Assembly (NCBI GenBank): GCA_905234535.1
Contig: CAJOII010000039.1
Coordinates: 1 to 37,365, forward strand
Origin: an uncultured Ruminococcus sp.
Lineage (GTDB): Bacteria > Bacillota > Clostridia > Oscillospirales > Acutalibacteraceae
Direction: 5' to 3'
Length of the DNA stretch: 37,365 nt
The position numbers and the translations under genes were made by a program. Shown one piece after another: positions 8,338 through 32,774 of the stretch. The notes beneath the pieces were generated by a model. It saw only the letters and a list, made by a program, of their open reading frames with translations. It searched no databases and had not been told where the DNA came from. Position 1 is the first letter of the stretch, and every line of letters begins with the position of its first letter.

Positions 8338-8365
8338 AACTAAGCTGTCAGAGAGACAGTGACAG

Positions 8366-8473
<108 letters not shown>

Positions 8474-19612: not shown

Positions 19613-21334
19613 TTATTCATCGCCCTGCAGCGCGTCATAGCCTTCTTCACCGGTGCGGATCTTGACGACATTCTCCACATCATAGACAAAGATCTTGCCG
19701 TCGCCGATATGGCCGGTATAGAGCGCCTTCTTTGCGGTCTCAATGACATCTCTGACCGGTATCGCCGAAACGACCATCTCTACCTGCATCTTGGGAAGCA
19801 GGTTCGTCTGCATCGGAACACCTCTGTAGTATTCGGGCTTGCCCTTCTGGGTACCGTAGCCCATGACATGGGTGACGGTCATGCCGGTGATACCGAGCTT
19901 CGCCATTGCTCTCTTGAGCTTTTCAAAGCGCGCTTCTTTTAGGATGATCTCGATCTTCGTGAATTTATGATCGCCCTTTTCAAAGTTGGGTACGGTCTTG
20001 ACCTCGACCGCCTCCGCGAGGGGGGTATCACCCGTGACGACAGTGATGTCTTCGCCGTAGGCGCTGTAGTCCTCGCTCTGCGCCATGAAGCCCGCGTAGG
20101 CAGAGGGCAGACCATGCTCAGTGATATCGAGACCCATGATCTCTTCTTCGGCGGACGCTCTGAGCCCGACGGTCTTCTTGATGATCTTGAAGGTGATGAT
20201 CATCATGACCGCCGCGTACGCGGCGACAGAGACAAAACCTAAGAGCTGTAAGCCGAGCTGTGTAAAGTCGCCGGTGTAGAACAGGCCGGAGAGTCCGGCG
20301 GGAGCGTCGGGATTTGCGAGCAGACCGACCGCGATCGTACCCCAGACGCCGTTTGCCATATGGACGCCGACCGCGCCGACGGGATCGTCGACATGGATCT
20401 TCATATCGAGCACCTCGACGACGACAACGACCAGGATGCCGGATACGATACCGACAACGGTCGCGCCGATGGCGTCTAATGCGTCGCAGCCTGCCGTGAT
20501 ACCGACTAAGCCCGCGAGCGACGCGTTCAGACACATAGAGACATCGGGCTTGCCGTTTTTGATCCATGTGAAGATCATGGTGGTACAGGTCGCGACTGCG
20601 GGAGCGATCGTGGTGGTCAGGAAGATCGACGCGAGTTCACTGGGAGTGGTCGCCGCCGCGCCGTTGAAGCCGTACCAGCCGAGCCACAGGATGAAGCAGC
20701 CCAAAGCGCCGATGACGATGTTGTGACCGGGGAAGGCGTTGACCTTTATCACCTTGCCGTTCTCGTCGCGCTCGTATTTACCGAGCCTCGGACCTAAGAT
20801 CCAAGCGCCCACCAGTGCCGCGATACCGCCGACCATGTGGATCGCGCAGGAACCGGCATAGTCATGAAAGCCGAGCTGAGAGAGCCAGCCGCCGCCCCAG
20901 ATCCAGTGGGCTTCGATCGGGTAGATGAATAAGGAGATCACACCCGAGTAAATACAGTATGCGCTGAACTTCGTGCGTTCTGCCATCGCGCCCGAAACGA
21001 TCGTTGCGGTCGTCGCGCAGAAAACGAGGTTGAATACGAATGTGGACGCGGCGGTGAAGTCGCCGTTTGAGGGGGATGCGATAAACTCCTTGAAGTGCGT
21101 GATCAGATCCATGTTCGGGATACCGATCAGCCCGAAGAGCGTATCCTCACCCATCATGATGGTGTAGCCCAAGAGCGCGAACACCACCGTACCGATACAG
21201 AAGTCCATCAGGTTCTTCATGATGATGTTGCCGGCGTTTTTCGCGCGGGTGAAGCCTGCCTCCACCATCGCGAATCCTGCCTGCATCCAGAATACCAGCG
21301 CGGCTCCGATCAAAAACCAAAATTCTACTGTCAT
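19613..21334 (-). CDS. amt: Ammonium transporter Amt fused to a C-terminal PII (GlnB/GlnK) domain
   Basis: MTVEFWFLIGAALVFWMQAGFAMVEAGFTRAKNAGNIIMKN... Amt core; C-term KFTKIEIILKEARFEKLKRAMAKLGITGMTVTHVMGYGTQKGKPEYYRG...HIGDGKIFVYDVENVVKIRTGEEG is a PII domain. Confidence 0.93.
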   Translation of the reverse strand: MTVEFWFLIGAALVFWMQAGFAMVEAGFTRAKNAGNIIMKNLMDFCIGTVVFALLGYTIMMGEDTLFGLIGIPNMDLITHFKEFIASPSNGDFTAASTFVFNLVFCATTATIVSGAMAERTKFSAYCIYSGVISLFIYPIEAHWIWGGGWLSQLGFHDYAGSCAIHMVGGIAALVGAWILGPRLGKYERDENGKVIKVNAFPGHNIVIGALGCFILWLGWYGFNGAAATTPSELASIFLTTTIAPAVATCTTMIFTWIKNGKPDVSMCLNASLAGLVGITAGCDALDAIGATVVGIVSGILVVVVVEVLDMKIHVDDPVGAVGVHMANGVWGTIAVGLLANPDAPAGLSGLFYTGDFTQLGLQLLGFVSVAAYAAVMMIITFKIIKKTVGLRASAEEEIMGLDITEHGLPSAYAGFMAQSEDYSAYGEDITVVTGDTPLAEAVEVKTVPNFEKGDHKFTKIEIILKEARFEKLKRAMAKLGITGMTVTHVMGYGTQKGKPEYYRGVPMQTNLLPKMQVEMVVSAIPVRDVIETAKKALYTGHIGDGKIFVYDVENVVKIRTGEEGYDALQGDE

Positions 21335-21364
21335 ATGATCACCTTCCAAATATAAATGAATTGA

Positions 21365-21398
21365 CAAAGGCGTACTCCGAAAACAGAGTACGCCTTTG
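21365..21398. promoter_or_regulatory. Leader hairpin of amt containing the CAAAGGCGT box
   Basis: CAAAGGCGTACTC CGAAAACA GAGTACGCCTTTG, 13-bp perfect stem, 30 nt upstream of the amt ATG. Confidence 0.6.
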
Positions 21399-21460
21399 CT
21401 TGTTTTGCGCAAGACAGACATTTCAGGTTTGTTATACTAATCCTTGATAAAGGATCAGTA

Positions 21461-23287
21461 TCATTCCACCGTAACGGATTTTGCCAGATTACGGGGTTTG
21501 TCAACATCGTTGCCTTTGTTGACCGAGGTATAATACGCGAGAAGCTGCATCGGAACGGTCGCGACCATCGGCATCAGCACCTCGTATCGCTTCGGAATGC
21601 GGATGAGATAATCGGCGGCGTCCTTATCGATGTCCGCCTCTTCGTCACAGATGACGATCGTCATCGCGCCGCGTGCCTTGACCTCCTTGATGTTCGACAC
21701 GGTCTTTTCGATCAACCTGTTCTGGGTCGCCACGGCAATCACCGGCATTCCTTCTTCCACCAGCGAGATGGTGCCGTGCTTGAGCTCGCCCGCCGCATAA
21801 GACTCCGAGTGGATGTAGCTGATCTCCTTGAGCTTCAAGGAGCCCTCCATCGAGAGCGCGTAGTCAAGCCCTCTGCCGATGTAAAGAAGGCTGTCCGCGG
21901 TGATCAGCTTGGTCGAGATATACTGGCATTGGTCAACGACCTTATCGATCGTTTCCTTGATGACATCGGGGATGCGCGTAAGCTCCGCTGTCAGCCGCTG
22001 ACACTTGCCCTTGTCGATCTTGCCTTTGGCGTAAGCCATCTCGAACGCCAAGAGATAGATGACCGCAAGTTGTACCATGTACGCCTTGGTAGAGGCGACG
22101 GCGATCTCGGGACCCGCGTGGGTATAGATGACCATGTCCGCTTCTCTCGCGATCGAGCTGCCCTTGACATTGACGATGGCGAGCGACTTTGCGGCGGTGC
22201 CTTTGACGAGGTTCAGGACCGCCTTGCTGTCGGCGGTCTCGCCCGACTGGCTGATGATGATGACGAGGTCGCCCTCGCCGATCAGCGGATCGCGGTAGCG
22301 GAACTCCGAGGCGATATCGACCGTGACGGAGACGCGCGCGTATTTTTCGATGATATACTTGCCTACCATGCCGGCGTGCATCGCGGTGCCGCAGGCGACG
22401 ATGAAGATATTGTTGACATCTCTGAGGGTTTCGGGAGTGATGCCGCACTCGGAGAGGTTGGGCATGCCGTCCTCGATACGCGGAGTGATGGTGGTCTTGA
22501 CCGCTACGGGCTGCTCGTGGATCTCTTTGATCATAAAGTGAGGATAGCCGCCCTTTTCAGCAGAGTCCTCATCCCAGTCGGCGGTTTTGAGCTCTTTCTC
22601 TACCATTCTGCCGTGCAGATCGCAGAAGGTGACGGAGCCGTTCCTGAGCACCGCGATCTCACCGTACTCGAGCAGATAATAGTCCTTCGTATATTTGATG
22701 ATTGCGGGGACATCGGAGGCGATGAACGCTTCTCCCGTACCCTGACCGACGATCAGAGGAGACTCACACCGTACGGCGTAGACCGTCTCGGGACGGTCCG
22801 CGAAGATAATCCCCAGCGCGAACGAACCGCGTACCTCGTGAAGAGTTCTGCGGATCGCGCGGACCGGGTTGCCGTCGTAGTAGAAGTCTAAAAGCTGCGC
22901 GACGACCTCGGTGTCGGTGTCAGAGAGGAACTCGGTCCTCTCGTTCTCTATCAAAAACTTCTTGATGTCCTTGTAGTTTTCGATGATGCCGTTGTGGACG
23001 ATGGTGACGCGGCGCCCCGAGTGTGGGTGGGAGTTGACATCCGACGGCTCGCCGTGGGTCGCCCAGCGGGTGTGACCGATGCCGGCGTGACCCTTGGGCC
23101 TTTTCTCCTTCTCCATCTTGGCGACCAGGTCCGTGAGCCTGCCCTTTGACTTCGCGACCTCGATCTTTCCGTTCTCAAAGACGGCGATTCCCGCTGAGTC
23201 ATAGCCTCTGTACTCGAGCTTCGTCAGCGCCGAGACCAGCACATCGGTACAGTCACGCGGCCCTACATATCCTACGATTCCACACAT
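21461..23287 (-). CDS. glmS: Glutamine--fructose-6-phosphate aminotransferase (isomerizing)
   Basis: MCGIVGYVGPRDCTDVLVSALTKLEYRGYDSAGIAV..., GHTRWATHGEPSDVNSHPH, SIS domains, C-term DKPRNLAKSVTVE. Confidence 0.97.
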   Translation of the reverse strand: MCGIVGYVGPRDCTDVLVSALTKLEYRGYDSAGIAVFENGKIEVAKSKGRLTDLVAKMEKEKRPKGHAGIGHTRWATHGEPSDVNSHPHSGRRVTIVHNGIIENYKDIKKFLIENERTEFLSDTDTEVVAQLLDFYYDGNPVRAIRRTLHEVRGSFALGIIFADRPETVYAVRCESPLIVGQGTGEAFIASDVPAIIKYTKDYYLLEYGEIAVLRNGSVTFCDLHGRMVEKELKTADWDEDSAEKGGYPHFMIKEIHEQPVAVKTTITPRIEDGMPNLSECGITPETLRDVNNIFIVACGTAMHAGMVGKYIIEKYARVSVTVDIASEFRYRDPLIGEGDLVIIISQSGETADSKAVLNLVKGTAAKSLAIVNVKGSSIAREADMVIYTHAGPEIAVASTKAYMVQLAVIYLLAFEMAYAKGKIDKGKCQRLTAELTRIPDVIKETIDKVVDQCQYISTKLITADSLLYIGRGLDYALSMEGSLKLKEISYIHSESYAAGELKHGTISLVEEGMPVIAVATQNRLIEKTVSNIKEVKARGAMTIVICDEEADIDKDAADYLIRIPKRYEVLMPMVATVPMQLLAYYTSVNKGNDVDKPRNLAKSVTVE

Positions 23288-23327: not shown

Positions 23328-25421
23328 TCATCTCACGCCGAAAAGCAACTCACCATATGTCGGCAGCGGCCAGAGCTCTGCGTCTACGACCGCTTCGGCG
23401 GCGTCGGCGTACTCTCTGAGAACATCCATCTGCGGCAGGATCTCGTCGCGGACGAAGTTCGCCTGCTCGATGATATCGTCGATATGGCCGAGGTGGTCCG
23501 CAAGACGCTCGAGCACGCCCATGTTCGCGCTCATCTCGTCGCACGCGGCGGAGAGCTTCTCGATATTCTGCGTTTCATACGCGCAGCTGATGTTCTCGGA
23601 GAGCGCCTTCTTCATGGTCGCGTTTTTTAAGAGCTTCGAGAGATAGGTCTCGATCGCGGGGAGGATCTGCTTGCCGGTCATATCGATCATGGTCAGCGCC
23701 TCAATGTTGACCTGCTTGACATAGTTTTCGAGCATAATCTCGAGGCGGCTCTCAAGTTCTGCCTTGCTGAAGACCTTATGAGAGGTCAGCATTGTGACAT
23801 TCTTCTCATCCAGCAGATGCGGCATCGCGTCGGCAGTGGTCTTAAGATTCGACAGACCGCGTTTTTCGGCTTCTTCCAGCCACGCGTCGTCATAGCCGTT
23901 GCCGTTGAAGATGATGCGCTTGTGGGCTTTGATGGTGTCACGGATGAGGTTGTGGACATCGTTCTCAAAGTCTTCGGACTTCTCCAGCATATCCGCGAAC
24001 CCTCTCAAAGACTCTGCGACCGCGGAATTAAGCATCATATTGCAGCAGGCGATGGAGTTCGATGAGCCGAGCATACGAAACTCGAATTTGTTGCCCGTGA
24101 ACGCGAAGGGTGAGGTGCGGTTTCGGTCGGTGGTGTCTCGTCTGAACTGCGGCAGGACATCTACGCCTAACTTCATATACTTCTGCTTTGCGCCGGCGTA
24201 TTCGGTTTCGTTCTCGATCGCGTCCAAGACGCCTGAGAGCTCATCGCCGAGGAAGATAGAAATCACGGCGGGGGGCGCTTCGTTCGCGCCTAAGCGGTGA
24301 TCGTTGCCGGCTGTCGCGACAGAGAGCCTCAAAAGATTCTGATACTCGTCGACCGCTTTGATCACGGCGACTAAGAACAGTAGGAACTGCACATTCTCAA
24401 ACGGCGTCTCACCGGGGGTCAACAGGTTGAGCCCTGTATCGGTGCCGATCGACCAGTTATTGTGCTTGCCCGAGCCGTTGACGCCCTTGAAGGGCTTCTC
24501 GTGTAAGAGACAGACCAGACCGTGCTTCTGCGCGACCTTCTGCATGATCTCCATGGTCAGCTGGTTGTTGTCGGTTGCGACATTGGTGGTGGTGTAGATG
24601 GGCGCGAGCTCATGCTGAGCGGGCGCGACCTCGTTGTGCTGTGTCTTCGCCAAGATCCCGAGCTTCCACAGCTCGTCGTTCAAGTCTTCCATATAGGCGA
24701 GCACGCGCGGCTTGATGGTGCCGAAGTAGTGATCGTCTAATTCCTGACCTTTCGGGGGACGCGCTCCGAACAGGGTGCGTCCGGTGTAGATCAGGTCTTT
24801 GCGCTTTGCGTACAGCTCCTTGGGGATCAGAAAGTACTCCTGTTCGGGACCGACGGAGGTGACGACGCGCTTGACATCTTTATTACCAAACAATTTTAAG
24901 ATACGCAGCGCCTGCGTGTTCAATGCCTGCATCGATCTGAGCAGCGGGGTCTTCTTATCCAGCGCGTCTGAGCTGTATGACGCGAACGCTGTCGGGATAC
25001 ACAGGGTCTTGCCCTTGATGAAAGCGTAGGAGGTAGGATCCCACGCGGTGTAGCCTCTCGCCTCGAAGGTAGCTCTCAGTCCGCCGGAGGGGAAAGAAGA
25101 CGCGTCGGGCTCGCCCTTGATCAGTTCTTTGCCCGAGAACTCCATGATCACCCTGCCGTCGGGAGAGGGTGAGATAAAGGAATCGTGCTTCTCGGCGGTG
25201 ATGCCGGTCAGCGGCTGGAACCAGTGAGTGTAGTGGGTCGCGCCCTTCTCGATCGCCCAGTCCTTCATCGCGACCGCCACGGCGTTCGCTACCGTCAGAC
25301 TCAGCTGTTCGCCGTCGTCGATGGTCTTTCTCAGCTTCTGATAGATCTTGCCGTCTAAGCGCTCCTTCATGACCTTGTCGTCAAATACCAGACTTCCGAA
25401 ATACTCTGCTACATTAGCCAT
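23328..25421 (-). CDS. glnN: Type III glutamine synthetase
   Basis: [22 protein letters not shown]..., [65 protein letters not shown]. Confidence 0.95.
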
Positions 25422-25441
25422 ACAGATAACTCCTTCCAAAA

Positions 25442-25481
25442 CAAAAAAATAGGCGCCTCGAGCGATTTGCTCAAGACGCCT
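25442..25481 (-). promoter_or_regulatory. Leader terminator/attenuator of glnN
   Basis: Minus strand AGGCGTCTTGAGC AAATC GCTCGAGGCGCCT then ATTTTTTTGTTTT, between the promoter and the SD GGAAGGAG. Confidence 0.8.
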
Positions 25482-25498
25482 TTGTCTTTACGAGTTGC

Positions 25499-25527
25499 AT
25501 TATACGCTCTTGAAACGCTTTTGTCAA
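25499..25527 (-). promoter_or_regulatory. glnN promoter
   Basis: Minus strand TTGACA-17-TATAAT, both hexamers exact consensus. Confidence 0.9.
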
Positions 25528-25589: not shown

Positions 25590-25618
25590 TTGACAACCGC
25601 ATCCTGTGATGCTATAAT
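25590..25618 (+). promoter_or_regulatory. glt operon promoter
   Basis: TTGACA (25590-25595), 17 nt, TATAAT (25613-25618), exact consensus. Confidence 0.9.
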
Positions 25619-25642
25619 GATCGGGTAATGAGCAAAGGCGTT

Positions 25643-25680
25643 CATTTAGGGTACAGCCCTAAGTGGCGTCTTTTTTATTT
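25643..25680 (+). promoter_or_regulatory. Leader terminator/attenuator of the glt operon
   Basis: CATTTAGGG TACAG CCCTAAGTG then GCGTCTTTTTTATTTTT, about 20 nt after the expected TSS and 140 nt before the first ATG. Confidence 0.65.
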
Positions 25681-25684
25681 TTGA

Positions 25685-25823: not shown

Positions 25824-26924
25824 ATGATGAGAGAGGGAGAATTTCGAAATCCGTCCGGCTGCGCGATCGCGGCTGAGATCTCGAGAGAGGGCAGACGCTT
25901 CTCGGCAGAAAAGATCATCGAGAGTATGATCCCGATGCACGACCGTTCCAACGGTCTCGGCGGCGGCTTTGCGGGTTACGGCATTTATCCGAAGTACAAG
26001 GACTTCTTCGCGTTTCACCTGTTCTTTGACGACAGGCATGTCAAGAAACAGGTCGAAGAGTATCTGAAAGAACGCTATGAGATCGTCTTATCCGAAGAGA
26101 TCCCTACGCGCAAGATCCCCGAGATCACCGACGAGCCGATCATCTGGCGCTATTTCTTGAATCCGCTGAGATCGGTTTTGAGATCGGCGCAGTTGGATGA
26201 GAAGGAGTTTACCGCGCGCGTGGTTATGCACATCAATACAAAAGTAGACGGCGCGTATGTCTTTTCCTCCGGAAAGAACATGGGCGCATTCAAGGCGGTA
26301 GGCTTTCCGGAGGATGTCGGGCGCTTCTATATGCTCGACAAGTATGAGGGCTACAGCTGGACCGCTCACGGACGCTATCCGACCAACACCCCCGGCTGGT
26401 GGGGCGGCTCGCACCCGTTCGGACTTCTGGACTATTCGGTCGTTCATAACGGCGAGATCAGCTCTTATGACGCGAACCGCCGCTTCATCGAGATGTTCGG
26501 CTACAAATGTACCTTGCAGACCGATACCGAGGTCATGGCGTATATCGCCGATTTTCTCCTGCGGCGCAAAGGGCTCAGCCCGGAGGAAATGGCAGAGGTG
26601 ATCGCGGCGCCCTTCTGGTCGACGATCGAGAAGAAGAGTGAGGAGGATCAGGCGAGGCTGACCTACTTCCGCGCGGTCTACTCATCCCTCCTGATGACGG
26701 GGCCGTTTTCCATCGTGGTTGGCTATACCTGCGGTCTGATGGCCTTAAACGACCGCCTCAAGCTCCGCTCGATGGTAGCGGCAGAAAAGGATGATATGGT
26801 CTATATCGCTTCTGAGGAGACCGCGATCCGCATCATGTCTCCCGAGGTAGACAGGATCTGGTCGCCCGCGGGCGGCGAGCCTGTGATTGTGAATGTAAAG
26901 GACGGTGTATCAAATGCCGGTTAA
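25824..26924 (+). CDS. Glutamate synthase glutaminase (class II GATase) subunit
   Basis: PSGCAIAAEIS with candidate nucleophile Cys, MHDRSNGLGGGFAGYGIYP, GRYPTNTPGWWGGSHPFGLLDYSVVHNGEISSY, QTDTEVMAY. Confidence 0.9.
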   Translation: MMREGEFRNPSGCAIAAEISREGRRFSAEKIIESMIPMHDRSNGLGGGFAGYGIYPKYKDFFAFHLFFDDRHVKKQVEEYLKERYEIVLSEEIPTRKIPEITDEPIIWRYFLNPLRSVLRSAQLDEKEFTARVVMHINTKVDGAYVFSSGKNMGAFKAVGFPEDVGRFYMLDKYEGYSWTAHGRYPTNTPGWWGGSHPFGLLDYSVVHNGEISSYDANRRFIEMFGYKCTLQTDTEVMAYIADFLLRRKGLSPEEMAEVIAAPFWSTIEKKSEEDQARLTYFRAVYSSLLMTGPFSIVVGYTCGLMALNDRLKLRSMVAAEKDDMVYIASEETAIRIMSPEVDRIWSPAGGEPVIVNVKDGVSNAG

Positions 26925-28419
26925 TTATATGTTGCCCGAGTTCGAGGTAGAGCGCTCGGACTATCGCTGTATCCGCTGCCGCGTCTGTGAGCGCCAGTGC
27001 TCAAACGGCGTGCATCGTTATGACATCGACGGCGATGTGATACTCTCTGACGAGTATAAATGCGTGGACTGTCAGCGGTGTGTATGCCTCTGTCCGACCC
27101 ACGCGCTCAAGATCAAGAAGAACGAAGCCTCTCTCAGAGAGAACTTCAACTGGAAGCAGAACACAATCCTCGAGATCTATAAGCAGGCGAACACCGGCGG
27201 CGTGCTCCTGAGCTCCATGGGCAACCCCGAGCCGTTTCCGGTCTACTGGGATAAGATCCTGATCAACGCATCTCAGGTGACGAACCCCTCCATCGATCCC
27301 CTCAGGGAGCCGATGGAGACGCGTGTGTTTTTAGGGAAGAAGCCCCACGATATCACGCGCGATGAGAACGGCAATATCAACACAGAACTCCCGCCGCAGA
27401 TAGAACTTGAGCTTCCCGTGATGTTCTCCGCGATGAGCTACGGTTCGATCAGCTACAACGCGCACAAGAGCTTGGCTACCGCCGCAGAGGCGCTCGGCAT
27501 CTGCTACAACACCGGTGAGGGAGGTCTGCACGAGGACTTCTATCAATACGGCAAGAATACGATCGTTCAGGTCGCGTCGGGGCGCTTCGGCGTTTATAAA
27601 GATTACCTCGAAGCGGGCGCCGCGATCGAGATCAAGATGGGTCAGGGCGCAAAGCCCGGCATCGGCGGACACCTGCCCGGCGCGAAGGTCCAGGCGGATG
27701 TCTCTAAAACGAGAATGATCCCCGAGGGGAGTGACGCGATCTCTCCCGCGCCGCACCACGATATCTACAGTATCGAAGATCTGCGTCAGCTGGTCTTCTC
27801 CTTAAAAGAAGCGACAGACTACAAGAAGCCCGTTATCGTCAAGGTAGCGGCGGTCCATAATATCGCCGCCATCGCCTCCGGTATCGCAAGATCCGGCGCG
27901 GACATCATCGCGATCGACGGCTTCAGAGGCGGCACCGGAGCGGCTCCCACGCGCATACGCGACAATGTCGGCATCCCGATCGAGCTTGCCCTCGCGGCGG
28001 TCGACAAGCGCCTGAGAGACGAGGGTATCAGACAGAATGTATCGCTCGTCGTCGGAGGGTCGGTGCGGTCGGCATCGGATGTCGTCAAGGCGATCGCCTT
28101 AGGCGCGGACGCGTGTTATATCGCGACCTCAGCGCTCTTGGCGCTCGGCTGTCACCTCTGCCGCACCTGCCAGAGCGGCAAGTGCAATTGGGGCATCGCG
28201 ACACAGGATCCGGAGCTTGTCAAAAGGCTGAATCCCGAGACCGGCAAAGAGCGGCTTATTAACCTTTTGACGGCATGGAAGCACGAGATCAAAGAGATGA
28301 TGGGGCTCATGGGGATCAACTCCATCGAAGCCCTGCGCGGTAACCGATTGATGCTGCGCGGGGTAGGACTAAACGAAAAGGAGCTTGAGATTCTCGGTAT
28401 CTCACACGCGGGCGAATGA
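26914..28419 (+). CDS. Glutamate synthase FMN-binding (synthase) subunit with N-terminal 2x[4Fe-4S]
   Basis: CIRCRVCERQC and CVDCQRCVCLCP; MFSAMSYGSISYNAHKSLATAAE, NTGEGGLHEDFYQYGKN, QGAKPGIGGHLPG, IDGFRGGTGAAPTRIRDNVGIP. Confidence 0.93.
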   Translation: MPVNYMLPEFEVERSDYRCIRCRVCERQCSNGVHRYDIDGDVILSDEYKCVDCQRCVCLCPTHALKIKKNEASLRENFNWKQNTILEIYKQANTGGVLLSSMGNPEPFPVYWDKILINASQVTNPSIDPLREPMETRVFLGKKPHDITRDENGNINTELPPQIELELPVMFSAMSYGSISYNAHKSLATAAEALGICYNTGEGGLHEDFYQYGKNTIVQVASGRFGVYKDYLEAGAAIEIKMGQGAKPGIGGHLPGAKVQADVSKTRMIPEGSDAISPAPHHDIYSIEDLRQLVFSLKEATDYKKPVIVKVAAVHNIAAIASGIARSGADIIAIDGFRGGTGAAPTRIRDNVGIPIELALAAVDKRLRDEGIRQNVSLVVGGSVRSASDVVKAIALGADACYIATSALLALGCHLCRTCQSGKCNWGIATQDPELVKRLNPETGKERLINLLTAWKHEIKEMMGLMGINSIEALRGNRLMLRGVGLNEKELEILGISHAGE

Positions 28420-28850
28420 AGAGAGTATATGTACATGAAGAATGGTGCCTCGGGTGTCATCTCTGCGAATACAACTGCGCCTTCTCAAACTCGGGGCTGA
28501 CCGATATGGTCAAGGCGCTGAAGAGTAAGAAGATCACGCCCCGGATCCATGTCGAGGACGACGGCAGGATCCACTACGCGGTGTCCTGCCGCCACTGTGA
28601 GGATCCCTTGTGTATCAAGGGCTGCATCTCCGGCGCACTGAGTAAAGGCGCTGACGGCGTTGTTACCATCGACCACGATAAGTGCGTCGGGTGTCTGAGC
28701 TGTATGCTGCTGTGCCCCTACGGCTCGATCACGACCGATGAGAACGAGACGGTGCTCAAGTGTGAGCTTTGTATCAAAAACGGCGGTATCCCGAAGTGTG
28801 TTGAGGGCTGTCCGAACCGCGCGATCGTCTTTGAGGAGGTAGAGGAATGA
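28416..28850 (+). CDS. 4Fe-4S ferredoxin-type electron transfer subunit
   Basis: CLGCHLCEYNC, CRHCEDPLCIKGC, CVGCLSCMLLCPYGSI, CELCIKNGGIPKCVEGCP. Confidence 0.92.
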   Translation: MKRVYVHEEWCLGCHLCEYNCAFSNSGLTDMVKALKSKKITPRIHVEDDGRIHYAVSCRHCEDPLCIKGCISGALSKGADGVVTIDHDKCVGCLSCMLLCPYGSITTDENETVLKCELCIKNGGIPKCVEGCPNRAIVFEEVEE

Positions 28851-30085
28851 AGTATGTGATCATTGGGAACGGTCCCGCCGCGGTATCCTGCATCGACGGG
28901 ATCCGCAGCATCGATCAGAAGGGCGATATCACCGTTATCTCCAAAGAGGCGCACAGAGCCTACTTTCGGCCGCTGATCTCTTATTATCTTGAAGGCAAGA
29001 GCAAGGAGAAGAATATCTATTGCAGAGCAGATGACTTTTATCAGAAGAATCATGTCGAGACTGTCCTCTCGGAGGCGGTCGCGATCGATAGGGATCATAA
29101 GATCGTCTCTTTGTCGGGCGGAGAGAATATCGCTTATGGCCGGCTGTGTATCTGCTCAGGTTCGTCGCCGTTTGTGCCGCCCATGAAGGGGCTCAATACG
29201 GTGGAGAAGAAGTTCACCTTTCTCACCATCGACGACTCGTTCGCGCTTGAGCAGGCGGTGAATGAGAACAGCCGTGTGCTGATCATCGGCGCGGGGCTCA
29301 TCGGGCTCAAGTGCGCCGAGGGACTCAGAGACAGAGCGAAAAGCGTCACTGTCTGTGATCTCGCTCCGCGGGTACTCTCATCGATTCTCGACGACGAGTG
29401 TGCTTCTATCGTGCAGCAGCATTTAGAGAAGTGCGGCATACAGTTTTCGCTTTCGAATACCGCGGAGTTCTTTGACGGCGGTACCGCGCATATGATGGAC
29501 GGCTCCGTTATCGATTTCGATGTGCTCGTCCTCGCTCTGGGCGTACGCCCGAACATCGGCTTCTTCAAGGATGCGGGCGGCGAGTGTAACCGCGCGATTC
29601 TTGTGGACAACAGTATGAAGACATCTATCGAAGATATCTATGCCGCGGGCGACTGTGTAGAGCAATATGATATTTCTTATGGAAAAAAAAGAATCATGGC
29701 GCTGCTTCCGAACGCGAACATCGGCGGCTTTATAGCAGGCGTGAATATGGCAGGCGGCAGCAAGGCGTTCGACAACGCTGTTCCGATGAACTCTATCGGT
29801 TTCTGGGGGCTGCACATGATGACCGCAGGGACCTACGCAACCGGCGGGGATGCCAAGATGATCGAAGAAAAGAGCGAGAAGAGCATCAAGCGCTTCTTCG
29901 TCAGGGACAACAGACTCATCGGCTTCATCATCATCGGCGATGTAAAGAGCGCCGGAATCTACACGAATCTCGTGCGGTCTCAGACCGATCTGAGCGATCT
30001 CGATCTGAGCGCTCTGATCAAAAATCCGAATTTGTTACCTTTTTCTGAAAAATATCGTAGAAAAACGCTGAGAGGAGTGGTATAA
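28847..30085 (+). CDS. NAD(P)/FAD-dependent oxidoreductase (NirB/rubredoxin-reductase-like)
   Basis: MKYVIIGNGPAAVSCIDGIR, VLIIGAGLIGLKCAEGL, DIYAAGDCVEQ. Confidence 0.9.
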   Translation: MKYVIIGNGPAAVSCIDGIRSIDQKGDITVISKEAHRAYFRPLISYYLEGKSKEKNIYCRADDFYQKNHVETVLSEAVAIDRDHKIVSLSGGENIAYGRLCICSGSSPFVPPMKGLNTVEKKFTFLTIDDSFALEQAVNENSRVLIIGAGLIGLKCAEGLRDRAKSVTVCDLAPRVLSSILDDECASIVQQHLEKCGIQFSLSNTAEFFDGGTAHMMDGSVIDFDVLVLALGVRPNIGFFKDAGGECNRAILVDNSMKTSIEDIYAAGDCVEQYDISYGKKRIMALLPNANIGGFIAGVNMAGGSKAFDNAVPMNSIGFWGLHMMTAGTYATGGDAKMIEEKSEKSIKRFFVRDNRLIGFIIIGDVKSAGIYTNLVRSQTDLSDLDLSALIKNPNLLPFSEKYRRKTLRGVV

Positions 30086-30807
30086 TGGTATCGTTAGACG
30101 CTAAAGTGTTAAATCATCAAAGCCTAAATCAGCAGATCAAGTCCGCGGGAGAGGAGATCGAGCTCGATAATGTCCTCGGTCAGCGATTCATCGCCGCGGG
30201 CGTGTCCGACAAGTCTATCGAGATCCACGGCACTCCCGGAAACGCCTTGGGCGCGTATTTAAACGGCGCTGTCATCAATGTCTACGGCAACGCGCAGGAC
30301 GCGGTGGGCGATACCATGAACTCGGGACAGATCAATGTGTTCGGCAATATCGGCGACGCGGCAGGCTACGCGATGCGCGGCGGCAGGATCTTTGTCTTGG
30401 GGAATGCGGGATATCGCGCCGGCATCCATATGAAAGCGTACAAAGAGCACATTCCCGTGATGATCATCGGCGGCAAGGCGGGCTCGTTCTTAGGCGAGTA
30501 CCAGGCGGGCGGCATCATCATCGTGTTAGGACTTTCTGATGATGACAGCGATATCGTCAGCAACTTTCCCTGCACCGGTATGCACGGCGGCAGGATGTAT
30601 CTCAGGTCCAAGTGCGAGGGGATCCACTTTCCTCATCAGGTGACGGCAAAGACCGCCGATCATGAGGATATCGATGATATCCGCGGCTATGTTACCGAAT
30701 TCTGTGAGATATTCGGATATGATGCCGAAGAGATCTTAGATGCGGACTTTACGGTGATCACTCCCGACAGCCGCAATCCCTATCAGCAGATGTATGTAGC
30801 GAATTGA
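30085..30807 (+). CDS. Glutamate synthase GXGXG-domain subunit
   Basis: GAYLNGAVINVYGNAQDAVGDTMNSGQINVFGNIGDAAGYAMRGGRIFVLGNAGYRAGIHMK, a beta-helix repeat of the GltB C-terminal domain. Confidence 0.92.
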   Translation: MVSLDAKVLNHQSLNQQIKSAGEEIELDNVLGQRFIAAGVSDKSIEIHGTPGNALGAYLNGAVINVYGNAQDAVGDTMNSGQINVFGNIGDAAGYAMRGGRIFVLGNAGYRAGIHMKAYKEHIPVMIIGGKAGSFLGEYQAGGIIIVLGLSDDDSDIVSNFPCTGMHGGRMYLRSKCEGIHFPHQVTAKTADHEDIDDIRGYVTEFCEIFGYDAEEILDADFTVITPDSRNPYQQMYVAN

Positions 30808-30820
30808 GCAGGTCAATTCG

Positions 30821-30850
30821 AGTGAATAGTGAATAGTGAATAGTGAATAG
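30821..30850. repeat. Tandem heptanucleotide repeat (GAATAGT x4)
   Basis: GTGAATAGTGAATAGTGAATAGTGAATAGTGA in the gap between the GXGXG and GS-like genes. Confidence 0.9.
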
Positions 30851-30913
30851 TGAGGGTGGACTCCGTCCACACCTGATTCCGGTTTCTTATTCATAAGAAG
30901 TGAGGTAGTTACT

Positions 30914-32125
30914 ATGACTCAATCCGAACAGGAGATCATGCAGTATATCGAAGAGGAGGATGTCAAGTTCATCCGGCTCGCGTTCTGTGATATCTACGGC
31001 GCGCAGAAGAATATCTCTATCCAGCGCGGCGAGCTTTCACGCGCGTTTGAGCACGGCATTGCGATCGACGCATCGTATATCGCGGGCTTCGGCGGAGACT
31101 ACGGTGAGGATATCTGGCTCCATCCCGAAGCGGATACCATCACGGTGCTCCCGTGGCGTCCCGAACACGGCAAGGTGGTCAGGATGTTCTGCACCCTGAG
31201 CTTCGCGGACGGTACACCGGTAGACGCCGACACCCGCACGATCCTGAAGAATGCGGTCACATATGCGCGGCAGAAGGGTTATCGCTTCCACTTCAAGTCT
31301 CAGCTGCAGTTCTATCTCTTCAAGACCGATGAGAACGGTGAGAGTACACACACACCCTACGATTACGCGGGATATATGGATATCGCGCCGCGCGACAAGG
31401 GCGAGAATGTCCGCCGTGAGATCTGTCTGACCTTAGAGCAGATGGGTATCACGCCCGAGAGCTCTCATCACGAGGCAGGCCCCGGTCAGAACGAGATCGA
31501 CTTCACCTATGCCGATCCGCTGACCTCGGCGGACAACACGGTCACCTTTCTCTCTGTTGTCCGCACGATCGCTGCGAGAAACGGGCTGTACGCTGACTTC
31601 TCTCCCAAGCCCTTTGCCGACAAGTCCGGCTCGGCGCTGCATATCACCATGTCGATTCACTCAAAATCAGGCGAGGATGTAACAGACTACGCGATCGCGG
31701 GGATCCTGAGAAGGATCAGCGCGATGACGGTATTTTTGAATCCGACCGACGACAGCTACCGCCGTTTCGGACGGCTCAAAGCGCCGAAATATATCACATG
31801 GTCGTCGAAGAACCGCGCCCAGCTGATCTCGGCACAGCTGACGAAAAACGGCAACCCGTGTCTGCAGCTGCGCTCTCCCGATCCGGAGGCGAACCCGTAC
31901 CTTGCGTTCGCTCTGATGATCTATGCGGCGGTGGACGGCATCAAGCAGCAAGAGGAGCTTCCGCCCTCTACCGATAAAGATGTGCTGTTGATGACTGCCG
32001 AAGAGCAGAAGAACTATGCTCTTCTGCCCGATACGATCGATAAGGCGAGAACAGCGGCATATGACAGCGGATTCATCAAGAAGAATATCCCCGACAGTGT
32101 GGTTAAGGCTTATTGTAATAAATAA
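30914..32125 (+). CDS. Divergent glutamine synthetase type I-like protein with substituted active-site residues
   Basis: GS-I scaffold recognisable (VKFIRLAFCDIYGAQKNISI, ESSHHEAGPGQNEIDF, LRSPDPEANPYLAFALMIYAAVDGIK) but SQLQFYLF, SGSALHITMS, NRAQLISAQ and LQLRSPDP in place of canonical motifs. Confidence 0.85.
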   Translation: MTQSEQEIMQYIEEEDVKFIRLAFCDIYGAQKNISIQRGELSRAFEHGIAIDASYIAGFGGDYGEDIWLHPEADTITVLPWRPEHGKVVRMFCTLSFADGTPVDADTRTILKNAVTYARQKGYRFHFKSQLQFYLFKTDENGESTHTPYDYAGYMDIAPRDKGENVRREICLTLEQMGITPESSHHEAGPGQNEIDFTYADPLTSADNTVTFLSVVRTIAARNGLYADFSPKPFADKSGSALHITMSIHSKSGEDVTDYAIAGILRRISAMTVFLNPTDDSYRRFGRLKAPKYITWSSKNRAQLISAQLTKNGNPCLQLRSPDPEANPYLAFALMIYAAVDGIKQQEELPPSTDKDVLLMTAEEQKNYALLPDTIDKARTAAYDSGFIKKNIPDSVVKAYCNK

Positions 32126-32192: not shown

Positions 32193-32774
32193 ATGGCGTT
32201 GGAAGAACGGATGTATCACGCGCTGATCGTGTCACGGTCTGAGAATTTCAAGAAAGAGATCGGCTCCCTTCTGACTGTGGAGCGATTTCGAAAAGACTAT
32301 GCCGACAGCGCCTCTGAAGCGCGCAGGAAGCTCTTGGAGCGCTCATTTGACTTCGTTATCATCAGCGCACCGCTGACGGATGAGTTCGGCTCAAGACTCG
32401 GTGTGGATATCAGCGGGACCCCGGGCTCGATCGCGGTGCTGTTTGTGACGAGCGATGTATATGAGGAGATTGTCCACAAGGCGTCTCCTCACGGCGTGTT
32501 TATCATCAAGACGCCCGCGTCCCGCTCGGTCGTGATCCGGTCGATGGATCTGCTGATCTCGGCGCGCGAGCGGCTCAGAGCCGTCGAAAAAAAGGCGGGC
32601 AAGGCACAGAGCAAGATCGAAGAGATCCGCGTCGTCAACAAGGCGAAGTGGTTTTTGATCGATAACGAGAACATGGGTGAGAACGAAGCGCATAAGTATA
32701 TCGAGAAAGTCGCCATGGACGCAGGAATCACAAAGAAGCAGGCGGCGCAGATGATCATTGAGAAGTACAGTTAA
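32193..32774 (+). CDS. ANTAR-domain RNA-binding antiterminator with receiver-like N-terminal domain
   Basis: N-term ALIVSRSENFKKEI...DFVIISAPL; coiled coil; C-term IEEIRVVNKAKWFLIDNENMGENEAHKYIEKVAMDAGITKKQAAQMIIEKYS is an ANTAR domain. Confidence 0.88.
   Translation: MALEERMYHALIVSRSENFKKEIGSLLTVERFRKDYADSASEARRKLLERSFDFVIISAPLTDEFGSRLGVDISGTPGSIAVLFVTSDVYEEIVHKASPHGVFIIKTPASRSVVIRSMDLLISARERLRAVEKKAGKAQSKIEEIRVVNKAKWFLIDNENMGENEAHKYIEKVAMDAGITKKQAAQMIIEKYS

Follow-up and report, generated by a model that had tools for sequence, protein, structure and literature searches.

The GlnA-like gene at 30914-32125 (+) of the window, by which we mean the whole 37,365-nt stretch of Ruminococcus DNA analyzed here, appears to encode a catalytically dead derivative of type I glutamine synthetase (GS-I) that works with an ANTAR antiterminator in a nitrogen regulatory switch, as its sensor subunit. 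We assign this reading a probability of about 0.6 on the basis of comparative sequence analysis. An earlier note on this DNA had proposed a pseudoenzyme with an ANTAR-linked regulatory role, and the proposal is supported by a distinct clade, purifying selection, repeated catalytic losses with the ANTAR gene kept, and leader attenuators that resemble ANTAR targets.

The open reading frame is intact and encodes 403 aa, with both GS domains (PF03951 and PF00120) scoring above their Pfam cut-offs. Against the NCBIfam GlnA equivalog the protein scored 281.8 bits, far below the cut-off of 429.15. Its AlphaFold model is a confident GS-I fold (pLDDT 90.5) that matches Methanosarcina mazei GS (8tfk) with a TM of 0.94. 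Residue equivalences were taken from an alignment to B. subtilis GS and other GS of solved structure and are given with Salmonella numbers in brackets, the roles of the latter being those we take to be established by GS-I structural work: Q130 (E129), Q132 (E131), E187 (E212), E194 (E220), H243 (H269), R284 (R321), K289 (flap E327), R301 (R339), S306 (R344), C316 (R355), Q318 (E357) and R320 (R359). The metal ligands E129, E131, E212, E220, H269 and E357 accordingly read Q, Q, E, E, H and Q. The alignment and the codons (cag at 31301-31303 for Q130, 31307-31309 for Q132 and 31865-31867 for Q318) confirmed the reading of the earlier note that Gln stands at both ExE positions and in place of the ExRSPDP Glu; the intact frame, its coordinates and codons, and the motifs SGSALHITMS and NRAQLISAQ, the latter replacing NRSxLIRIP, were likewise found as claimed when the sequence was re-read. 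The earlier note missed C316 and a change in the flap that carries the catalytic Glu, where a shorter GRLKAP (K289) stands in place of PGYEAP. Two arginines that contact the ATP phosphates are gone (R344 to S306, R355 to C316), and ammonia residues are lost as well as those for metal and ATP. The amino-acid subsite (R284, R320 and H243) is intact and the metal ligands E187 and E194 are kept. Based on these residues, the gene most likely encodes a catalytically dead GS-I derivative, with loss of activity predicted. A perfect tandem repeat, AGTGAAT x4.7, lies at 30821-30853 between gltB3 and the GlnA-like gene.

The gene follows a split glutamate synthase (GOGAT) on the forward strand, consisting of gltB1, the class-II glutamine amidotransferase subunit (25824-26924, PF00310); gltB2, the FMN/FeS subunit (26905-28419, PF01645); a 4Fe-4S electron-transfer subunit (28416-28850, PF13247); a FAD/NAD(P) oxidoreductase subunit (28847-30085, PF07992); and gltB3, the GXGXG subunit (30085-30807, PF01493). 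The presumed catalytic Cys of GltB1 is residue 13 (SGCAI) instead of the N-terminal residue, which may make processing necessary. Encoded on the reverse strand are a type III glutamine synthetase (GSIII; 23328-25439, PF12437/PF18318), downstream of it glmS (21461-23287), named from its translation alone, and an ammonium transporter fused to a PII (GlnK) domain in one polypeptide (19613-21421, PF00909 and PF00543). The catalytic motifs of this GSIII are intact in translation (GPEQEYF, GANEAPP and KFEFR), making it likely a real GS, and a second GSIII is present on contig C3; real GS activity is likely supplied by these GSIII enzymes. Elsewhere in the window are an FMN riboswitch (2639-2766, -), upstream of an ORF at 1863-2654 whose sequence resembles a riboflavin-type transporter component, and a 5S rRNA gene (8365-8457, +). 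A search for tRNA genes in the 37,365-nt window returned none.

To place the window protein among its relatives, at least 558 were identified in a GTDB genome scan, of which the best 80 were taken with their flanks; a further 89 sequences came from a search across the class. The aligned family forms a series: 11 rows are complete GS-I with a PGYE flap, 22 have a short flap with Glu, 88 have a short flap mostly with Lys, and 31 have lost at least one metal ligand. The losses vary by lineage and include Q/Q, E129R with E357Q, E220R with E357T/K, E131K/N with E212A/Q, E129K and others; the alignment blocks around the lost ligands are clean. One origin for all catalytic losses was ruled out (AU p 2e-49), and parsimony requires at least nine changes; eight may suffice if the Q and R types are sisters with a common origin, as may be the case (AU 0.70). 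The GlnA-ANTAR pair is widespread in Clostridia, and metal ligands have been lost there several times with the ANTAR gene retained. A second pseudo-GS lineage (L195, L196, L201, L207 and L197) has E129R, E357Q or S, mostly D50N, and no R355, together with an ANTAR gene and an adjoining GSIII. Other metal-lost lineages that are still paired with ANTAR are L225 and L229, and L224, L226 and L230 (E220R; E212A/Q with E131K/N). Locus L199 (3599-6999) carries a short-flap GlnA-like gene in tandem with a complete GS-I, and ANTAR comes next; this may be an intermediate of duplication.

The window sequence belongs to the Q-type, carried by one group of Ruminococcus from rumen and gut. In a tree of 154 dereplicated members of the GlnA-like family, the Q-type sequences formed one group with an SH-aLRT of 100 and a stem branch 0.67 long. 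Lost clade-wide are the metal ligands at Q132 and Q318, the ATP-phosphate arginines at S306 and C316, and the flap Glu at K289. Q130 was found solely in the window genome and in G050:C21, the other Q-type members reading SELQ or SEMQ, and by this distribution it is a recent addition confined to two genomes. The Gln pattern marks the clade at Q132 and Q318 and not at Q130, and the earlier "isosteric Gln at three metal ligands" comes down to two clade-wide changes and a later third. Nor is isosteric replacement the rule, since the other independent losses are to R, K, S, T, N or A.

These patterns bear on the rival reading that survives best, in which the protein remains catalytic but has altered its substrate or its use of metal, for instance as a gamma-glutamyl ligase or transferase. 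The retained R284, R320, H243, E187 and E194 would suit such an enzyme, other GS relatives are generally known to make gamma-glutamyl amides, and most members of the wider family have changed no catalytic residue other than the flap Glu. However, two metal ligands and two ATP-phosphate arginines are gone throughout the Q-type clade and no catabolic or biosynthetic partner gene adjoins, and we consider this reading improbable, if the least so of the rivals.

The gene that does adjoin encodes an ANTAR antiterminator (32193-32774, +; PF03861, 47.4 bits against a cut-off of 27.3). Its ANTAR domain is C-terminal, after a receiver-like domain and a coiled coil, and by structure comparison the protein folds like EutV, Rv1626 and AmiR, the last of which has been solved in complex with the ligand sensor AmiC. 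The phospho-acceptor Asp of the receiver is replaced by Ser58; among 189 relatives it is lost in 184, with Asn in 170 and Asp in 5. The phosphorylatable Asp of the EutV type is absent, and from this residue the receiver is predicted not to be phosphorylated in the normal way. We ruled out that the pseudo-receiver is peculiar to GlnA-linked ANTARs: Asn was also found in 17/17 of the ANTARs read from related genomes with no GlnA-like gene at hand, so the pseudo-receiver alone is no proof of dependence on the GlnA-like protein, and such ANTARs can work without it. Two GOGAT operons (L141 and L144) have the ANTAR gene directly 3' of gltB3, no GlnA-like gene and a pseudo-receiver that is kept, indicating that another input must exist there.

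Linkage of the two genes was nevertheless extensive. ANTAR lay directly within 450 bp of the GlnA-like gene at 90/112 loci, many of the remainder being second paralogues near GSIII or at contig ends, and next to it in ~82/89 loci of the class-wide sample, as read by eye. Among 100 sampled genomes of the genus, which are related and whose counts are therefore not independent, 21 encoded a GlnA-like protein and 21/21 of these a cognate ANTAR (at least 40% identity). Two further genomes, G043 (where it is at a contig end) and G074, had a cognate ANTAR and no GlnA-like gene. The GOGAT subunit gene gltB2 was absent from 12 of the 21, and four genomes carried gltB2 with no GlnA-like gene. In one GOGAT-less lineage the GlnA-ANTAR pair is duplicated and sits among glmS, GSIII, amt and a gene read from its sequence as a putative NADP-glutamate dehydrogenase. 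Judged by gene content, the constant partner of the GlnA-like gene is the ANTAR gene and not GOGAT. A role as a GOGAT subunit is disfavored, as the pair outlives GOGAT. More broadly, that the gene sits in the operon of the split glutamate synthase, both in the window and across many Clostridia, could reflect a pseudo-GS that is a structural or allosteric partner of a GOGAT or GSIII complex instead of the ANTAR protein; we think this unlikely, slightly more so than a modified enzyme, given the 12 of 21 genomes that keep the pair without glutamate synthase, the four with the converse arrangement, and copy numbers that track ANTAR in most genomes.

Candidate targets for the ANTAR protein were found in the divergent intergenic region, where each strand has a perfect sigma-70 promoter and an intrinsic terminator ~25 nt or less beyond it. 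The operon from gltB1 to the GlnA-ANTAR pair has a promoter at 25590-25618 (+, 12/12 consensus) and a leader attenuator at 25621-25681 (+), in which the hairpin AAUGAGC[AAAGGC]GUUCAUU overlaps the terminator at 25642-25666. On the other strand, the GSIII-glmS-amt genes have a promoter at 25499-25527 (-, 12/12 consensus) and an attenuator at 25441-25497 (-), with the hairpin AAGAC[AAAGGC]GUCUU overlapping the terminator at 25481-25451. In both leaders the AAAGGC hexaloop hairpin and the terminator share bases and are mutually exclusive alternative folds. The loop fits the A1/G4 rule of known ANTAR targets, whose hexanucleotide loops have A first and G fourth (PMC3369931). In the window and its relatives, ~23 such elements were found in 60 upstream regions compared to ~0.7 expected, upstream of gltB1 in 6/8, stand-alone GlnA-like genes in 7/19, GSIII in 5/14, amt in 4/9 and glmS in 1/10. 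The stems differ between elements and covary at 6/7 pairs, a pairing that is partly by construction since elements were chosen by loop and stem. Covariance-model searches of the 1.93-Mb genome returned two matches below E 0.01, both nitrogen leaders and both members of the training set (E 1.8e-11 for the gltB1 leader and 7.7e-9 for the GSIII leader). The best matches in relatives that carry the pair were within the same gene cluster; in eight GlnA-less genomes there were none in four and one or two weak matches in the others. A hexaloop attenuator was also seen at L042 2961-3017 (-), upstream of the putative NADP-glutamate dehydrogenase gene of the GOGAT-less lineage. No Rfam family covers either leader. 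Described ANTAR targets carry two hexaloop hairpins (PMC8164766), whereas the Ruminococcus nitrogen leaders have one each; the tandem dual-hairpin motif was absent from them, with three chance-like matches elsewhere, ruling them out as canonical dual-hairpin targets.

If the protein is a sensor, 2-oxoglutarate (2-OG) is its favored ligand on sequence grounds, with glutamine a distant second and other ligands sharing what is left. In M. mazei GS, 2-OG activates from a subunit-interface site formed by F24, R26, R87, R172', R173' and S189' (PMC11957540), and the site in MtGS is F18, R20, R88, R174, R175 and S191 (PMC10799026). Alignment to 8s59 showed that the equivalents in the GlnA-like protein, F19, R21, R82, R167, R168 and S184, are all kept, and the full MtGS set was present in the window and in 30/31 metal-lost rows. 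Where the family has Phe and Arg, at the first and third of these positions, the GS of B. subtilis and Listeria carry Tyr and Thr, and their Glu at MtGS position 34 is said to clash with 2-OG. At positions 34/94 the metal-lost rows have Ser or Ala and Val (one Ala), with no clashing residue; Ser/Ala at position 34 holds for the family. Across the 31 metal-lost rows, 1/186 of the 2-OG cells was changed compared to 137/310 catalytic cells. Four of the six scored residues, F24 and R87 excepted, also occur in B. subtilis GS, and in a post hoc control random sets of equally conserved non-catalytic positions did as well with P 0.03, a modest margin; conservation by itself does not make a decisive case for the 2-OG site.

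The glutamine alternative, which the earlier note had named, is that the former active site of the pseudo-GS binds glutamine as its signal, as in the established circuit of Bacilli in which feedback-inhibited GS acts on GlnR/TnrA (PMC9249791); the retained amino-acid subsite agrees with this. However, the glutamine-feedback Arg of B. subtilis, R62, which locks the flap, is lost in nearly all short-flap members and is Gly in the window, the flap Glu that it locks is also gone from the window clade, and replacing this Arg is reported to abolish glutamine inhibition (PMC10799026). With R62 gone and the archaeal 2-OG site conserved, we rank 2-OG above glutamine and regard glutamine sensing as a poor prospect.

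The residue pattern is neither a sequencing or assembly error nor a matter of chance, as it recurs in independent genomes. Pairwise dN/dS (NG86) of the GlnA-like gene was 0.06-0.08 in four species pairs, close to that of pyrG and gltB, at a synonymous divergence to the four near relatives of ~1-1.5, which is near saturation. That the gene is functionless and decaying is scarcely credible: one relative (G057) has a disrupted copy, but these ratios, a residue pattern kept over tens of genomes, and duplication of the gene with its ANTAR in one lineage all stand against it. The disrupted copy (L038, 3376-4592) is broken near the C-terminus, perhaps through assembly error. Recent decay is ruled out by the dN/dS together with the SH-aLRT 100 clade, bearing out the earlier argument for selection over random decay. 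Orthologs with canonical ExE and ExRSPDP do exist in the same operon (G010 and G088, 56-57% identity), which the earlier note had tied to recent decay; the change nevertheless marks an old, well-supported clade and not the decay of one genome.

A dead GS fold with 2-OG and amino-acid sites, an ANTAR protein that lacks the phosphorylation site, and a hairpin exclusive with a terminator fit one switch. By analogy with AmiC-AmiR or NasS-NasT, the pseudo-GS probably senses 2-OG and thereby controls the ANTAR antiterminator. Under nitrogen shortage, 2-OG rises as the signal of that shortage; the ligand, most likely 2-OG, would bind the pseudo-GS and change its assembly, which would alter how it holds the ANTAR protein. 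ANTAR protein that is free or activated may then stabilize the hexaloop hairpin so that no terminator forms, and the nitrogen-assimilation genes would be transcribed, a sign of effect that we infer. The transcripts with an exclusive hexaloop hairpin are those of glutamate synthase and GSIII and, in relatives, the GlnA-ANTAR pair, amt and gdhA. More tentatively, and at somewhat less than even odds, GS may repeatedly have become a dedicated 2-OG sensor across Clostridia, controlling an ANTAR antiterminator that works at one-hairpin attenuators ahead of GSIII, GOGAT, amt and gdhA.

To our knowledge, nitrogen sensing in Clostridia is not settled and no counterpart of GlnR/TnrA or NtrBC is known there. 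Our literature search, limited to open-licence papers, found no description of a pseudo-GS paired with ANTAR. If the proposed switch is real, many gut and rumen genes annotated as glutamine synthetase make no glutamine, which affects metabolic models, and the family would be a clear bacterial case of a central enzyme serially converted to a regulator. A genetic hint comes from C. thermocellum, where removing the type I GS gene that neighbors the GOGAT cluster, in the words of a title, "deregulates nitrogen metabolism" (ref. 27 of PMC9888227), a result that such a switch may also explain.

A GS-derived sensor acting on an RNA antiterminator would be a third ligand-to-ANTAR wiring beside AmiC-AmiR and NasS-NasT. 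AmiC-AmiR of Pseudomonas aeruginosa is similar in that a ligand sensor is encoded with an ANTAR protein, and of the solved relatives of the window ANTAR, AmiR is one of the closest; however, AmiC has a periplasmic-binding-protein fold and a solved complex, whereas here the sensor would have a GS fold and the complex is a predicted one. NasS-NasT of Paracoccus and others also joins a nitrogen-signal sensor to an ANTAR protein on leader RNA (PMC3795266), but NasS binds nitrate/nitrite and is no GS relative. The 2-OG-activated archaeal GS of M. mazei and M. thermolithotrophicus share the fold (TM 0.94) and identical 2-OG residues (PMC11957540, PMC10799026), yet they are active enzymes turned on by 2-OG, and the GlnA-like protein lacks catalytic ligands. 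Lastly, in Bacilli a GS-I conveys nitrogen status to GlnR/TnrA and shares one operon with GlnR (PMC9249791); that GS is active, signals glutamine with R62 and the Glu flap, and has a DNA-binding partner, whereas the GlnA-like protein has lost catalysis and R62 and its partner is RNA-binding.
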